Translations under genes and position numbers: made by a program
Part shown: piece after piece, positions 770-60,873 of the stretch
Numbering within the stretch: the stretch's first letter is position 1
Layout of the letters: each line of letters starts with the position of its first letter
Notes under the pieces: model-generated
Seen by the model: only the letters and a program-made list of their open reading frames with translations
Databases searched by the model: none
What the model was told of the DNA's origin: nothing
Assembly: GCA_018812925.1 (NCBI GenBank)
Contig: JAHJCU010000005.1
Coordinates: forward strand, 207,706-271,705
Direction: 5' to 3'
DNA: 64,000 nucleotides
Source of the DNA: Candidatus Omnitrophota bacterium
GTDB lineage: Bacteria; CAIJMQ01

Positions 770-3700
770 AAAATTTTTGAGTTTTGCATTGCTTGTTCTA
801 GTAATAATAATCCCATTAGAAGCGGCTGAGACAAAATCCCAACCAACAATTGCAGTTCTGGGAACAACAACGGAACTGTCTGATTTATGTTCGCTTGTTG
901 AGGCGGGGCTGTTTCAAAAAGGGTTGGCTTTAGTTGAACGGGCAAAAATAGACAGCATATTAAAAGAGCAGAAGCTAACTGCCTCGGGACTCGTTGAACG
1001 AGATAATCTCCTAAAATTAGGACAATTAATCCGAGCAGATGGATTCCTGTTGATATCAATAGAGGAAGTCCCAAAAGAAAACAAAAACAAACTTCTTCGT
1101 ATTCGTCTTATTGACACAGCACATGGACTATGTTTTCTGGATACCTTTGAATCTTGGGATGATACAAAATTAAAAGAAACTACAGAAAGAATTACAGGAA
1201 ATGTATCTGCAATGGCTCCCAAACTAATCCTGCCTCCAGATAAAGCAATCCCGATAGGTATAGTAGGTATTCATAGGGTCGAACTTGATGAACGCTATCA
1301 ATGGCTTACAAGAGCATTACCTGTAATGCTGTCAGCACGTCTAAACAAAGAGCCAAGAATAATAATGCTTGAACGTGAAGACCTGAAGATGCTCTTGGAC
1401 GAGAAACTACTGACAAAAGGACAAGACACAGCATTCTTAAATTCTGCCATATTAATTGATGGATATCTACAAAGAGGAGAAAAGGAAGGGATAAAGCTAC
1501 GAGATGAGGAGGATGAAATAAAGTTAGAACTACATATGAAAGATTTCTTAGGTAAAGAAAGAGCTGTATTTACAGAGTTAGTTCATCCTGATGAACCATT
1601 AACAACAGTAGAGAAAGTAGTACCCAACATCATCAAAGAATTACTTAATGCTTCATCTATAACTGTATGGGAACCCAAGAAAGAGGCTGAAGAATTTTTC
1701 CTACAAGGAGATTTGTTAAAGAAACACGGAAGACACAAAGATGCAATATCACCCCTTGAAACGGCATATGCTCTTCAACCAGATAATATTATTTACACAG
1801 GAGCACTTTTTGAGAATGAATGGGGTACTCGTGTTATACAGGGAGGACATACTGTAGAAACAGGTATCTCTAATTATTCAGATTTAGAATTGGCTTGTAC
1901 TGTCTCTCGTTTGGTTCGACAAATAAAAACGGGATACGAGAACGGTTCAGTATCTGCAGATGATATTCTAAAATGGGAAGAATTAATCGGTAAAGGAGGC
2001 GCTTGGAAAGGCGGCTATCTTATAAATTCCGCTTCGTCTTCTACTCAAGAAGTTAGAGATATAAACCGCGAAAACCGAAATTTTTTTGTAGAGATACTAA
2101 AAAAAATTAGTAAAAGAAACAATAACAGGTATCTTCCTTTAACTGCAGTTTACATTAGTTCTGACAATCCATACGAATTGATAAAAAACTTTAGAGAATT
2201 TGCGCAGGAAGTTATTTTGCCTCCTAAAATAGGCGAAATGGAGCAATCATTTGATGAAAGATATGTTGCTTGCCGTTTAATATTAACACAACTGCCGGAT
2301 CGTTGGGGACCGTACGCTCTTTCTGAGAAGAGTCAATTAAGAGAACAAAGCAAAAAATTTCAGGAATTATGGATAGAATATGTTAAAGAACTAACACAAA
2401 TTAAAGACCCATTAGTAAGATTTTCAAGTTGTTTATGTCTTGCGCAAATATTAAAAAGAGGAAGTCCAGAAGCAAAGGAATATTGTTTGAAGGCAGTAGA
2501 TATCTTGCTAACAGAACTTAATAGTCCCAATGAACCTTTTAAAAGTAATTCAAGGACGTATAAAGAATCTATGCGTAGCGATATGAAATGTGGTATAAGG
2601 TTTGCGGGATTTCCCTATGATGAAGAAGTTAGCATTTTTGAGAAGATTTATGAACCCTTAATAGTAAATAAAGACTGTCATAATTTAATGTTATGGCGTC
2701 CGACGCTAATAGGGTTTGCACCTATTTTCCGTCCCACTCCCGAAGAAGAAAGGCGCTACATAAAACTCTTAGAAAGAATAGCTGATGTTTTTGAGACTTG
2801 TGGCACTGATAAATGGGTTTTAACCGAGATAAAAGATTATTTAATAAGAGCAAAGAAGAAATTCCCTGAGTTAGGATCTTCCAATAATCCAACAACTCTT
2901 CCAGTTAATATCTTACTAAGCAATAAAGACTGGCAACAGAACAAGAAATTTAAACATACAAAATTTATGTGTCAGGATGATATGTTATGGATTTCTTTTG
3001 CAGAGCCTGGCGTCGGTCTTGCGGGAATAAATCTCAAGACAAGACAATTAACTTCGCTCTGGTATACAGATTTAGGCGGCAGGGAAATAGCATTTCCTTG
3101 TTTCTGGGAACCACCACTTTCTTTAGTAACTCCAATAAATGGTATAGCAGTAAGCGCAAATGCGAGTTATGTTGCTATCTGGAATATTGGTTTAATAGAG
3201 TTCCCGGGAAGTTCTGTTGTTGGCAAAAAATCTTTTGCAACTCCTAAAATATTTACTGAAAAAGACGGGCTTCCTTCAATATCAATTACAAGTATGGCTG
3301 GAAATGGAGATAAATTATGGGTTGCTTATGGAGGAACAGAACAAAGACATGGTAGAAGAGCATATGGTACTGTTTATTCAGCCGCAGAAAAAGATAGCGG
3401 ATTAGGTATATATAATCCTAAAACAAGACATTGGGAAACTGTATTTTGTAGTACCCTAAAAAGCGGTAATAATCCTTTCAATTCAGGGAACCCCTATGTC
3501 ATTTCTGACCTTACGTTTTCTTCTAAGAAAGACAAATTATTTTTTGTGGTAGGTAATCAAACTCGTGAGTCAGCTCAAAGAATTGATGAAATGAATAAGT
3601 GGTGGGGGCTTTGGAAAATTGATGTCAGCACAAGAAAACCTAAGTTTCTATGGTATAGAGAAGGGAATGATGATAATAGTTGTTATTCCCTAATATCTGG

Positions 3701-15149: not shown

Positions 15150-16343
15150 ATGATTTTACTGATTATTGTAAGCGCGGCTTTTGGTTTGAGTGTCGGGCTA
15201 TACGATTTTCTCCTGCCGCTTTTCTTAGACGATATGGGGATGTCATACGGCAGTATGGGTATTATTTTTTCTTTTTCCGCAATATTTATGTTCTTTGTCA
15301 GGGTTTATGCCGGGCATATTTCTGATTTGTTTGGCAGGAAGCACGTTTTTTCTTTATCTGTTTTCCTTTGCGGTTTATCTACTTTATTAACTCCTTTTCT
15401 TCCTAACATTGCATCTCAAGTGGTATTACGGTCTTTGAGGGAAATTGCAAGAGCCGTTAAGGAAACACTTCAGCAGTTATTGATTTTTGATAAGTGGAAG
15501 GAGTCGTTCCGGCATTTATCCGCCTGGATAGGGGGGGCTGATTTTACTTTTCAGGGGATAGGAATTCTTCTGGGAGGATTTTTACTTATAAAAATAGGTT
15601 ATAAGTATTCTTTTATTATCCCCGGAGCAATTGTAGTCCTTGTTTGTCTTCTGTTCCTCTTTAAGTTTAAAGAAAGCTATATTCCCCTGAAGACTCAAAA
15701 AGTTTTATCGGGTGATAATGTTTTGGCAACGGATTCTTTTTATTGGTCTTCTCCCTTTCAACATCGTTTGCCACGCCCTTTAGTGCTTATGGCTGTATCA
15801 GGATTTATTCTTGGAACAGGGGTGAGCATGAGCCATTCTTTTATGGCGCCTTTGTTTTTCTTGAATAAGTTCGCTATATCACCTGCCTGGGTTGCTATTA
15901 TTTTAGCTTTTCACAGGTTAAGTTTCGGTCTGCCTATGATTATGGCAGGCAAAATTGTTAAGTGGAATCTTAAAAGGACAATAATTATTTTTGTTTTATT
16001 ACAGGGTATTTTTGTATCTCTTACCGCAGTACCCGGATATTTTTTAACTGCGGCAATTATATGGCTTATGCATGATTTATTTGGTGCCAGCTTGTGGGTG
16101 CCTGCGCGCAATACCCTGATTCAGCAGTATGCGAGGGAAGGCAAGCGCGGACTTGATGTGGGGATGGTTCTTTCGTGGCAGGGGATGGGATGGATATTTG
16201 GGCCTTTGCTTGCGGGTTTGGCGGCTAAGAGTTCTATAAATTATCCTTTTATTTTAAGCGGTATAATAACTTCGCTTTCTGTTATTCCTCTTTTTTGGTT
16301 GAAAGATTCTTTCAAAAAATCGCAATTCGTAAAGGGTAATTAA
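15150..16343 (+). CDS. Major facilitator superfamily transporter
   Basis: 397 residues with about 11-12 hydrophobic segments. The loop after helix 2 has the MFS signature-like GHISDLFGRK (about 52-61). A central charged loop (about 175-205) divides two six-helix halves, and GLDVGMVLSWQGMGWIFGP lies in the C-terminal half. Substrate unknown; drug or sugar efflux is plausible but unsupported. The last codons (FVKGN) and stop are read from the GTAA-rich repeat that begins at about 16323, so the natural C-terminus may have been replaced. Confidence 0.85.
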   Translation: MILLIIVSAAFGLSVGLYDFLLPLFLDDMGMSYGSMGIIFSFSAIFMFFVRVYAGHISDLFGRKHVFSLSVFLCGLSTLLTPFLPNIASQVVLRSLREIARAVKETLQQLLIFDKWKESFRHLSAWIGGADFTFQGIGILLGGFLLIKIGYKYSFIIPGAIVVLVCLLFLFKFKESYIPLKTQKVLSGDNVLATDSFYWSSPFQHRLPRPLVLMAVSGFILGTGVSMSHSFMAPLFFLNKFAISPAWVAIILAFHRLSFGLPMIMAGKIVKWNLKRTIIIFVLLQGIFVSLTAVPGYFLTAAIIWLMHDLFGASLWVPARNTLIQQYAREGKRGLDVGMVLSWQGMGWIFGPLLAGLAAKSSINYPFILSGIITSLSVIPLFWLKDSFKKSQFVKGN

Positions 16344-16478
16344 AGATTCGTAAACGGTAATCAGTAATTCGTAAATAGTAATAAACAAGTAGCTAAAAAT
16401 AGAAAAAATTATGGATTACTGGTTACTAATTACCAAATTCACAAATTACAGTTTACGCTTTACCAATTACCAGTTACG
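16323..16478. repeat. Palindrome of stuttered 'ATTCGTAAATAGTAAT' units
   Basis: The left arm has repeated ATTCGTAAA(G/C)GGTAAT words; the right arm has TTACTAATTACCAAATTC, ACAAATTACAGTTTACG and TTACCAATTACCAGTTACGAA, roughly its reverse complement, around an A-rich centre. The left arm overlaps the 3' end of the MFS gene. A second member is at 60720-60873. Confidence 0.7.
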
Positions 16479-18918: not shown

Positions 18919-19037
18919 TTGCAATTCGCACCCTGAAATTTCATAGAAATTTCGGGTACTTAGTCCTTGAAATGCTTTGCATTTCTAAGGGAAGAATTGC
19001 GGGTACTTAATCCCGGAAATCCTAAGGATTTCTCGGG
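18919..19037. repeat. Three-hairpin palindromic element (CCCx-GAAAT...ATTTC-xGGG)
   Basis: Fills the gspC-gspD gap. Hairpins at 18931-18955, 18964-18990 and 19012-19037 share an outer CCC/GGG clamp and GAAAT/ATTTC stem, but have different, internally complementary cores. GCAATTC near 18921 and GAATTGC near 18994 form an enclosing pair. Related hairpins are at 43305-43412 and 36083-36109. Confidence 0.8.
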
Positions 19038-19052
19038 GCACATATTAAAAAA

Positions 19053-20940: not shown

Positions 20941-21063
20941 CCCCGTTAGAGATTAAAATTTTTTTATGATTTATATCAATGTTGCAGAAACAAAGATAAA
21001 GAAGGTTCACACGTTAAGTATAATTTACGCTTTGATGTATCGTCGGAGCTATCTCTAGCGGGG
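20941..21063. repeat. MITE-like element with 13-bp terminal inverted repeats, copy A
   Basis: Bounded by CCCCGTTAGAGAT (20941-20953) and ATCTCTAGCGGGG (21051-21063), 12 of 13 complementary. It fills the gspD-gspE gap, beginning 1 base after the gspD stop. Its interior aligns loosely with copy B at 25941-26067 (AAATAAAGA..., TTTACG, TATCTCTA). Confidence 0.8.
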
Positions 21064-25940: not shown

Positions 25941-26067
25941 CCCCGTTAGAAATTAAAAGAAAAAGTTATACTATATCTCTAGTTTCAAAACCAAAATAAA
26001 GAGTGTTTAGCCCTTAAGGCTGATTTACGGTCACCATAAATACAATGGCGACCTATCTCTAACGAGG
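25941..26067. repeat. MITE-like element with 13-bp terminal inverted repeats, copy B
   Basis: Bounded by CCCCGTTAGAAAT (25941-25953) and ATCTCTAACGAGG (26055-26067). Similar length (127 bp) to copy A (123 bp), with loosely alignable interior. Fills the DUF4416-SPOR gap. Confidence 0.75.
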
Positions 26068-35924: not shown

Positions 35925-36109
35925 GACCGTAACCCGTAACCTGTAAAGAGTAATACGATTAAAAACTGCCTGCCTGAAAATCTTACTTTGCACCAACAAA
36001 CAGGTTAGCATAATTCTTAATTTTAAAATTAAGAATTACCATTTACCCTTAGAGATTGATGAGCAATCTCAAGGACTTTGGTCCCGGGAATCTTTTAGAT
36101 TCCACGGGG
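35925..36109. repeat. Composite repeat region with a 28-bp perfect palindrome and a CCCG hairpin
   Basis: Includes GTAACCCGTAAC stutter (about 35930-35960), a perfect 28-bp palindrome TAATTCTTAATTTT|AAAATTAAGAATTA (36011-36038) and a CCCG-GGAATCT-TTT-AGATTCC-ACGGGG hairpin (36083-36109). It lies between the convergent fabG and phosphodiesterase genes. Confidence 0.7.
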
Positions 36110-36129
36110 CAAATTACTAATTACGAAAG

Positions 36130-43304: not shown

Positions 43305-43412
43305 CCCTGCAATTCAAAGAATTGCGGGCACTTAATCTCCCTTTAAGGGACTAAATCCCTGAAATCGCATTCGCGATTTCTAGGGGCCGGAAATCCTTTG
43401 GATTTCTCGGGG
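43305..43412. repeat. Multi-hairpin palindromic element (CCCx-GAAAT...ATTTC-xGGG)
   Basis: Hairpins CCCTGCAATTC-AAA-GAATTGCGGG (43305-43328), TCCCTTTAAGGGA (about 43338-43350), CCCT-GAAATCGC-ATT-GCGATTTC-TAGGG (43357-43385) and CCG-GAAATCC-TTT-GGATTTC-TCGG (43387-43411). Same family as 18919-19037. The remaining 190 bases of this 312-base gap hold nothing clear except the promoter at 43572-43601. Confidence 0.8.
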
Positions 43413-43571
43413 AACAGATTTACCAATTATTTTAAAGTAGCTGGTAGAAAGTAGCAAGTCCTGTTATATGCTTCCATATCTTTAAATAGTAAGGCGGAGC
43501 AATAAAAATCCTTGAGTTTAAGGTTTTCATCCTGCTGTTATTATACGCCTCTTTATTGGTGCCTTAAATGG

Positions 43572-53085: not shown

Positions 53086-54894
53086 TTATTCTTTTCTATT
53101 GAATCTTTTTTCTATTTCATTCCAGCTGAATCTTATTATTGCAGGTCTTCCGTGCGGACACCAATTTTTGTATTCGGTATTTTCCCATTGGTTGATCAAA
53201 GATTTTATTTCCTCATTGGTAAGCTTATCTCCTGCTTTGATAGCTGCTTTGCAAGCTACCATAGTCAAGATTTTTTCCGCGCATTCTTCCACTGAGAGTT
53301 GTTTGTCCATATTTTCAAATTCTTCGGCAATATCAAGAATGATAACTGATGGAGATGACTTTTTAATTGTTTTGGGAACGGAATGCACTATAAAAGTATT
53401 TTGTCCAAAAGGTTCAATGTTGAATCCTAAATTTTTGAGTAGAACCAAATTTTCAGTAATCATAGAAGCTTCGTGCTTATTTAATTCTATCGTTTCAGGT
53501 ATAAGAAGATTTTGCACCTGAATAGTTGAAGTTTTCATTTCTTTTTTTAGTTTCTCATAAAGAACTCTCTCGTGGGCTGCATGCTGGTCTAGCATAAAAA
53601 CCCCTTCAGAATCTTCTCCCAATAGGTAGGTGTTTTTAATCTGTACTTTGATATTTAATTTATCAGAAACAAGAAGATAATCTTCTCTCTTTTCTTTTAC
53701 CCCGTTAGAAATTCCCCCTATTTCATCTCTTGCAACAGAATCCCCGAGTATTTTATTTCTAACGGGGTGAACTGGTGTTCCCCCCAATTCTGTAAATCCC
53801 AATTGAGTATTTTTATCTTTTTCAGTTAAAGGCGTCCTTGTGTAGGGTTTATCAAATGTCTTTATTGTTACGTTTGGTTTTTTAAAAAATATTTCAGGTA
53901 AAAGTTTGGCATTTTTCAGGCAGTTTCTTACTCCTTCGCGGATGATTTCGAAGATTTCATTTTCCTTTTGAAATTTAATGATATCTTTAGAAGGATGTAC
54001 ATTTATATCTATTTCTTTTGGATCTATCGTAAGAAATAGAAAAACTTGAGGTTGTCTTTCTTCCGGTATAACGGGTTGATATCCTCTTTTGCAGGCGGCG
54101 GCTATTAAACCGCTTGAAATTGTTCTACCGTTTACAAAAAGATATTGCATGCCAGATTTTCTTCTGGCGAAGAAAGGCTTAGATATAAATCCTTCAATAT
54201 GGAAAAGAGAATTTTCTATTTTTAGAGGGATAAGTTCGGAAGTGAACTCTTTGCCCCAAAAATCTATAATTTTATCTAAATTGTTATTCCTGCTGAGTGT
54301 ATTTATGCGTTGTTTTTTATTGTGAAATAGCTGAAACGCAATTTTGGGACGAGCCAATGCTTCTCTTGTCACGATATTTAGTATGTGTCTTAATTCTACG
54401 CTGTCGTTTTTTAGGAATTTTTTTCTTGCAGGGAGATGAGAAAAAAGGTTTTTAACCGTTACAGTAGTCCCTTCGGGGCTGGCTTGTTCGGTTATTCTTT
54501 TTATCTTTCCGTTTTCTGCTTCAACCAAAATGCCTATCGATTCTTCTTTTGATTTTGTAAGAATAGAAAGTTGCGATGCTGTTGCAATTGAAGGCAGAGC
54601 TTCGCCGCGGAATCCTAAAGTGGAAAGTTTTAATAGGTCGTTGAAATCTCGGATTTTGCTTGTGGAATAACGCTCTAGGCAAAGTTCTGCGTCATCTCTT
54701 GTCATTCCATCGCCGTCGTCCCTGACTCTTATAAGTCTTTTCCCGCCTTCTTCAAGTTCAATTGTTATTTTTTTTGCATCCGCATCCAATGAATTTTCAA
54801 TCAATTCTTTTATGACAGATACCGGTCTTTCTATTACTTCACCGGCCGCAATGCGTTTGATTGTATCTTCACAAGGAATTCTAATTTTACCCAT
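53086..54894 (-). CDS. mutL: DNA mismatch repair protein MutL with an in-frame palindromic insertion
   Basis: 602 residues. GHKL ATPase: ELIENSLDADAKKI near 30, RDDGDGMTRDD near 57, GFRGEALPSI near 95; transducer domain to about 330; C-terminal endonuclease domain with DQHAAHERVLYE, VACKAAIKAGD and CPHGRP, so it is likely a nicking MutL. Residues about 376-399 (VHPVRNKILGDSVARDEIGG-type) are encoded by a 70-bp palindromic element in the linker between the ATPase and the dimerisation domain. No mutS in the window. Confidence 0.95.
   Translation of the reverse strand: MGKIRIPCEDTIKRIAAGEVIERPVSVIKELIENSLDADAKKITIELEEGGKRLIRVRDDGDGMTRDDAELCLERYSTSKIRDFNDLLKLSTLGFRGEALPSIATASQLSILTKSKEESIGILVEAENGKIKRITEQASPEGTTVTVKNLFSHLPARKKFLKNDSVELRHILNIVTREALARPKIAFQLFHNKKQRINTLSRNNNLDKIIDFWGKEFTSELIPLKIENSLFHIEGFISKPFFARRKSGMQYLFVNGRTISSGLIAAACKRGYQPVIPEERQPQVFLFLTIDPKEIDINVHPSKDIIKFQKENEIFEIIREGVRNCLKNAKLLPEIFFKKPNVTIKTFDKPYTRTPLTEKDKNTQLGFTELGGTPVHPVRNKILGDSVARDEIGGISNGVKEKREDYLLVSDKLNIKVQIKNTYLLGEDSEGVFMLDQHAAHERVLYEKLKKEMKTSTIQVQNLLIPETIELNKHEASMITENLVLLKNLGFNIEPFGQNTFIVHSVPKTIKKSSPSVIILDIAEEFENMDKQLSVEECAEKILTMVACKAAIKAGDKLTNEEIKSLINQWENTEYKNWCPHGRPAIIRFSWNEIEKRFNRKE
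53699..53768. repeat. Palindromic element inside mutL, copy C
   Basis: Perfect 14-bp inverted ends: ACCCCGTTAGAAAT (53699-53712) and ATTTCTAACGGGGT (53755-53768), the same terminal sequence as copies A and B but with a shorter, different interior. Read in frame by mutL. Confidence 0.9.
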
Positions 54895-60719: not shown

Positions 60720-60873
60720 TTAGCGAATAGGTTAGAAACCGTAAATGGTAAATGGTAATTAAAGATTCGTAATTCGTAAATAGTAATTGGTAAATGGTAG
60801 TTAAATAATAAAAACAACTGAAAAGATTACGAATTACGGATTACGAGATTCATTATTTTAACTGGCTAACTAA
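60720..60873. repeat. Palindrome of 'ATTCGTAATTCGTAAATAGTAAT' units
   Basis: Outer AGTTAGC / GCTAACT pair, then left-arm repeats of GTAAATGGTAA and ATTCGTAATTCGTAA, and right-arm ATTACGAATTACGGATTACGA. Same family as 16323-16478. Confidence 0.75.

Follow-up and report, generated by a model that had tools for sequence, protein, structure and literature searches.

The stretch of DNA that we analyzed (64,000 nucleotides, referred to here as the window) carries on its reverse strand a mutL gene, whose open reading frame has profile matches to the HATPase, transducer, and MutL_C domains and whose product retains the invariant DQHAxHE motif when aligned with its orthologues. This reading frame stays open across the whole of a palindromic element (Table 1), which adds 24 residues (HPVRNKILGDSVARDEIGGISNGV) to the protein and whose arms are read, free of stops, as PVRN and ISNG. 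Perfect 13-bp inverted repeats are rare in this DNA: when loops of up to 120 bp are allowed, the window has just three, one of which is the MutL copy. An earlier note on this DNA had described a 70-bp unit with perfect 14-bp inverted ends, identical to elements in intergenic regions, that adds about 24 residues while keeping the frame and avoiding stops. The inverted ends were as described, the frame is indeed kept and free of stops, and the figure of 24 codons held; the insertion is however 72 nt when measured against empty sites (a 68-nt element and 4 bp), and what is shared with the other elements is the arms, which are imperfect in those copies (123 and 127 nt long) and enclose different interiors. 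We found no other copy of the interior of the MutL element among the sequences searched, and the element had a folding z of -4.2.

Table 1. The palindromic element in mutL and the other copies of its family in the window (positions are those of the window)
Feature	Position	Strand	Remarks
mutL open reading frame, host gene	53086..54894	-	602 residues; MutL_C E=2e-42, DNA_mis_repair E=3e-34; DQHAxHE kept
Palindromic element proper	53700..53767	.	68 nt; with the 4-bp duplication, the 72-nt difference from empty sites
Left arm	53699..53712	+	ACCCCGTTAGAAAT; perfect 14-bp inverted repeat, outermost base within the flanking 4-bp site
Right arm	53755..53768	-	Reverse complement of left arm
Interior	53713..53754	.	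42 nt
Right target-site copy	53696..53699	-	TAAA (gene strand), identical to the empty sites in G003 and G002
Left target-site copy	53768..53771	-	TTCA (gene strand), diverged; 2/4 bases match TAAA
Second family copy	20941..21063	.	123 nt; one arm with 1 extra mismatch; other interior
Third family copy	25941..26067	.	127 nt; imperfect right arm; other interior

For comparison with relatives we refer to the genome studied as G000, to two genomes of the same genus as G001 and G002, and to one of a sister genus as G003. The MutL of G001 (95% identical) carries the insert with two residue changes, V to I and G to E, and an intact frame. At the position where G000 has TPVHPVRNKILGDSVARDEIGGISNGVKEKREDY, the MutL proteins of G003 (79%) and G002 (73%) have TPVKEKEEEY and TSVKEKDTEY, respectively, and their genes are without exactly the 72 nt, or 24 codons, that make up the element and the 4 bp. 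The insert peptide was also absent from all nine more distant MutL orthologues in our alignment. The earlier note had suggested aligning MutL with close relatives to see whether the insert is absent from them, and, beyond the two species G000 and G001, the closest orthologues do lack it. Judged from the aligned sequences, these comparisons show a gain of the segment and not its ancestral presence, with a target duplication that is imperfect at this site (TTCA/TAAA). Two other clean pairs of empty and filled sites, each differing by 75 nt in frame, were a glycosyltransferase (L119 filled, L160 empty) and PyrD (L140 filled, L101 empty), so that the empty and filled orthologous sites looked for in a MITE are provided by the MutL, L119, and L140 pairs. 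Further, the extra segment is missing at the same point in solved homologues of GatB (3al0), PyrD (1ep1), the OGG-type glycosylase (3fhf), and NadA (4hhe), and the alignment of CarA to 1c30 stops just before the element.

The insert occupies residues 376-399 of MutL, and in an AlphaFold2 model pLDDT was below 50 over residues 338-412, which places it in a flexible linker predicted to be disordered; its assignment to the linker between the ATPase and dimerization domains in the earlier note agrees with this model. Because the landing site is a linker predicted to be disordered, the enzyme is probably unaffected and the insert has been kept, and the segment would most simply be a tolerated, near-neutral scar.

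The family to which this copy belongs is defined by its arms, CCCCGTTAGARRT...AYYTCTAACGGGG, which form 13-bp terminal inverted repeats. With one mismatch or none, the arm CCCCGTTAGAAAT had 63 matches in the 1.47-Mb genome vs 4 for a reversed-pattern control, and exact matches numbered 74 and 29 in two congeners; among the stretches read, arm clusters corresponded to 48 copies in G000, 52 in G001, and 21 in G002. The elements range from compact hairpins of ~29 nt to others of 50-160 nt (29-157 nt for most copies), and their interiors are largely unrelated. A 71-nt form recurs; its fold is a three-way junction containing two inner hairpins (z ~ -9), and it is translated as PVRNRSPLGDRTEMPEALPISNG. 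Host proteins in the genus included IleRS, the OGG-type glycosylase, NadA, LipB, UvrC, PyrD, GatB, PurH, CarA, an AddB-like protein, and an M24 peptidase. Between eight orthologous copies in G000 and G001, differences were found at 8/204 arm sites, a figure biased downward because the copies were found by their arms, at 166/2342 flank sites, and at 71/500 interior sites.

Some individual loci deserve mention in their own right. In LipB, one insertion site is occupied in two species (L100:5874-5944 vs L133:6909-6979) with arms and flanks conserved and the second inner hairpin exchanged, which suggests template switching or conversion between copies. At positions 3001 and 3695 of L149 (G002), elements read LSLTG directly before FTLLEV/FTFLEI and thereby adjoin the prepilin-type cleavage site in each of two pilin-like genes, and L192 (Omnitrophota) likewise shows LTGFTLIEI. 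The window also contains a second palindromic repeat, CCGGAAATCC...GGATTTCTCGGGG, at 19013-19046, 36084-36117, and 43387-43420, and AT-rich tandem-like repeats of the type AATTCGTAAATRGTAATTGGTAAA at 16317-16406 and 60736-60804. A sequence related in appearance to the second palindromic repeat is translated twice within one PyrK-like protein of G000 (L101) as LRNSMEFQGPKSRKSFRFLGGK; from its sequence, this doubled peptide suggests a second in-frame element family in that genome.

To characterize the ends of the family we used 156 distinct copies with exact arms. The 4-bp flanks were identical in 87 of these, vs a mean of 12.3 and a maximum of 22 when the right flanks were permuted, and other duplication lengths showed no comparable excess over this control; a target duplication of fixed length is thus present at the level of the family, with the consensus YNNR (mostly TNNA). 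The free arm positions 11-12 agreed between the two arms in 150/156 copies (61 expected after permutation), so each copy has matched ends, and the 13-bp terminal inverted repeats expected of a MITE are matched even when variant.

All 32 copies that lie inside open reading frames (frame open for at least 30 codons before and at least 50 after; drawn from the 156) have a length of 2 mod 3, so that with the 4-bp duplication the frame is kept, although these copies partly share length classes (68, 71) and are not fully independent; copies outside any open reading frame were spread 22/15/15 across the three length residues. The in-frame translations mostly read PVRN/PVRS...SNG, with a few PLE[IV]...LTG; in the third frame, the arm contains a stop. 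A further 30 copies have no upstream frame and carry an internal ATG in frame with the downstream gene; half of these (15/30) sit in the native start codon as ATGNN[element]TG..., e.g., the A|TGAA insertions in L203, L177, L246, and L095:11161-11228. In L203, MEIKNTKISNGV now stands ahead of KFILGKKIE. Elements lay near an upstream stop codon in 22/156 cases (14%) vs 3% for random positions, and several were exactly at ATGA stop/start overlaps.

Among GTDB genomes, at least 115 stretches had exact paired arms (gap 40-70), compared with ~0.03 matches that we estimate would be expected by chance. Among the matches listed, the carriers, which are named as the deposited MAGs are named, included many classes of Patescibacteria, Deltaproteobacteria/Syntrophaceae, Elusimicrobia, Omnitrophota, Planctomycetota/Phycisphaerae, Nitrospinota, Nitrospiraceae, KSB1, Ratteibacteria, and Stahlbacteria. 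The spread is patchy: in the phylum to which a Nealsonbacteria MAG belongs, 10/286 genomes had the element (control 0), and a single arm was found in 8/60 genomes of a set of relatives. Hosts outside the genus included IF-2, DnaE, HypD, GlyRS, ribosomal L25, TGT, Ppx/GppA, and an SMC-type ATPase, and the earlier note's expectation of a translated scar (HPVRN...ISNGV) in other proteins was realized in many of them; not anticipated there were the occurrence in many phyla, the duplicated 4-bp target, and the copies that supply a start codon. One distant genome (G026) has 22 exact arm matches and near-identical copies of 93-94 nt, some at contig ends, i.e., a sequence pattern of putative recent activity. 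With one arm match in 2.9 million viral contigs (scrambled-arm control 0), phages seem unlikely to be the main carrier, and the element peptide was not found in the plasmids searched. The identical 13-bp ends in distant genomes would suggest that groundwater bacteria share a mobilizing enzyme and have passed the element on horizontally.

In our view the MutL segment is a member of a MITE-like family of non-autonomous mobile palindromes, the insertions that survive being those that preserve the frame; to this reading we assign a probability of roughly 0.85. An element with 13-bp terminal inverted repeats (CCCCGTTAGARRT), a variable interior, and a 4-bp duplication at YNNR sites would have inserted into the linker codons of mutL (ACACC-TGTAAAA) in an ancestor shared by G000 and G001, and the resulting 68 + 4 = 72 nt, read in the stop-free frame of the arms, would have added 24 residues and left the gene unbroken. 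Across the family, selection would remove insertions that shift the frame or add a stop, leaving the in-frame ones visible. We infer mobilization by a DDE-type transposase acting in trans, which would fit the ends and the fixed 4-bp duplication. No PF13701, PF01609, PF13586, or PF12762 transposase scored above the cut-off in the genomes of the genus itself, and the Y1 transposases present in relatives were not flanked by arms in any case inspected. Long arm pairs with matching 4-bp flanks proved, at the loci examined, to be unrelated arms beside ordinary genes, and a 2.9-kb arm pair in G026 contained no transposase. Since a search with five transposase families turned up, at the loci examined, no kilobase-scale arm pair with a transposase, i.e., no autonomous parent with the same ends, we class the family as MITE-like and not as the MITE of a named IS. 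MAG assemblies often lose multi-copy IS, so the absence of a parent transposase is a weak negative. The largely unrelated interiors are unusual for a single MITE family and count against this classification, as does the imperfect target duplication of the MutL copy.

It is unlikely that the copies are REP/BIME sequences mobilized by a RAYT (Y1 HUH) transposase. Proteins matching PF01797 were present in 7/8 of the element-bearing genomes examined, and the 71-nt copies, with two inner hairpins between inverted arms, are BIME-like; however, G000 itself was without a PF01797 match, the repeat did not flank the Y1 genes we inspected, and the arms (CCCCGTTAGARRT) have neither a GTAG nor a CGTC tag at one end. 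Single-strand Y1 transposition is not expected to duplicate a 4-bp target, which makes the duplication seen here unexpected under such mobilization. We regard as slightly less probable still that the palindrome has been retained for a function, as an mRNA hairpin or a peptide that tunes host expression or protein contacts. The perfect pairing and covariation of the arms (150/156 vs 61 permuted at positions 11-12), the folding of the MutL copy (z = -4.2) and of the 71-nt three-way junction (z ~ -9), and the slower change of arms than of interiors in orthologous copies (8/204 vs 71/500) would all suit such a function, but the ends of a transposing element would likewise be conserved and covary, and the conservation is in part a matter of ascertainment, the copies having been found by their arms. 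Moreover, the hosts are functionally unrelated, the locations within them differ, and close species do without copies.

An integron attC-like or other site-specific recombination site is highly improbable: the arms do contain GTTAG/CTAAC at a spacing of 30-130 bp, but in reversed order (GTTAG...CTAAC, not RYYYAAC...GTTRRRY) and with 7-base boxes off consensus, and the copies occur as single, dispersed units marked by a 4-bp duplication, not in arrays. Even though the genome is a 14-contig draft, an assembly artefact or binning error is hardly credible, as the independently assembled G001 carries this insert too, its frame intact and its coding sequence differing at two places, and exact paired arms recur across many independent assemblies. 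Rfam covariance models gave no match at E up to 1.

To our knowledge, in-frame coding palindromes are well documented only for the Rickettsia and Wolbachia repeats, having been regarded as peculiar to Rickettsia at first and to Wolbachia as well later on. The Rickettsia palindromic elements (RPE) and those of Wolbachia are short palindromes inserted in frame in many unrelated genes, where they are translated and for the most part tolerated, at exposed or flexible places in the protein (PMC10969869, PMC3767692). The parallel with RPE drawn in the earlier note, which took the sequence to be a different one, is apt, as in-frame insertion in many unrelated open reading frames is found here as well. 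The family differs from RPE in length (29-157 nt for most copies vs ~100-150 bp), in its fixed 13-bp arms with largely unrelated interiors and a clear 4-bp target duplication, and in its occurrence in many phyla with copies that supply a new start codon. We did not file it as RPE because its carriers (Patescibacteria, Deltaproteobacteria, Elusimicrobia, Omnitrophota, and others) lie outside Rickettsiales, to which RPE are restricted. By comparison of descriptions, the family appears to work like RPE with a different sequence and a far wider host range. Bacterial MITEs (the QMITEs of Coxiella, BOX, ERIC, and Nezha type), for which some in-frame fusions are reported (PMC5896051, PMC10969869), are similarly non-autonomous with terminal inverted repeats and a target duplication; in contrast to the present family, their in-frame copies are occasional and not frequent, and here we identified no parent insertion sequence, the interiors are unshared, and the ends are identical across phyla. 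REP/BIME sequences with RAYT are also palindromic and dispersed, sometimes with two inner hairpins between inverted ends, whereas the family described here has no GTAG tag, does not flank the Y1 genes inspected, duplicates 4 bp, and often lies inside open reading frames. In the open-access literature searched (subscription papers were outside the search) we found no earlier description of the arm or the peptide, neither of which led to a relevant paper.

Since this unrelated family does likewise in core genes of many phyla (IF-2, DnaE, GatB, GlyRS, MutL, PyrD, L25), it is not in a single order of endosymbionts alone that selfish DNA supplies protein segments. For many MAG proteins, scar peptides of this kind also distort alignments, the calling of start sites, and predicted structures. 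More tentatively, and with somewhat less than even confidence, we propose that the family is gene-safe and has spread horizontally over many mostly uncultured phyla, its stop-free PVRN...ISNG ends, frame-keeping lengths, and own ATG at start codons and ATGA overlaps turning insertions into functional fusions. If this is true, the family would act as a general source of new protein segments and N-termini outside Rickettsiales.
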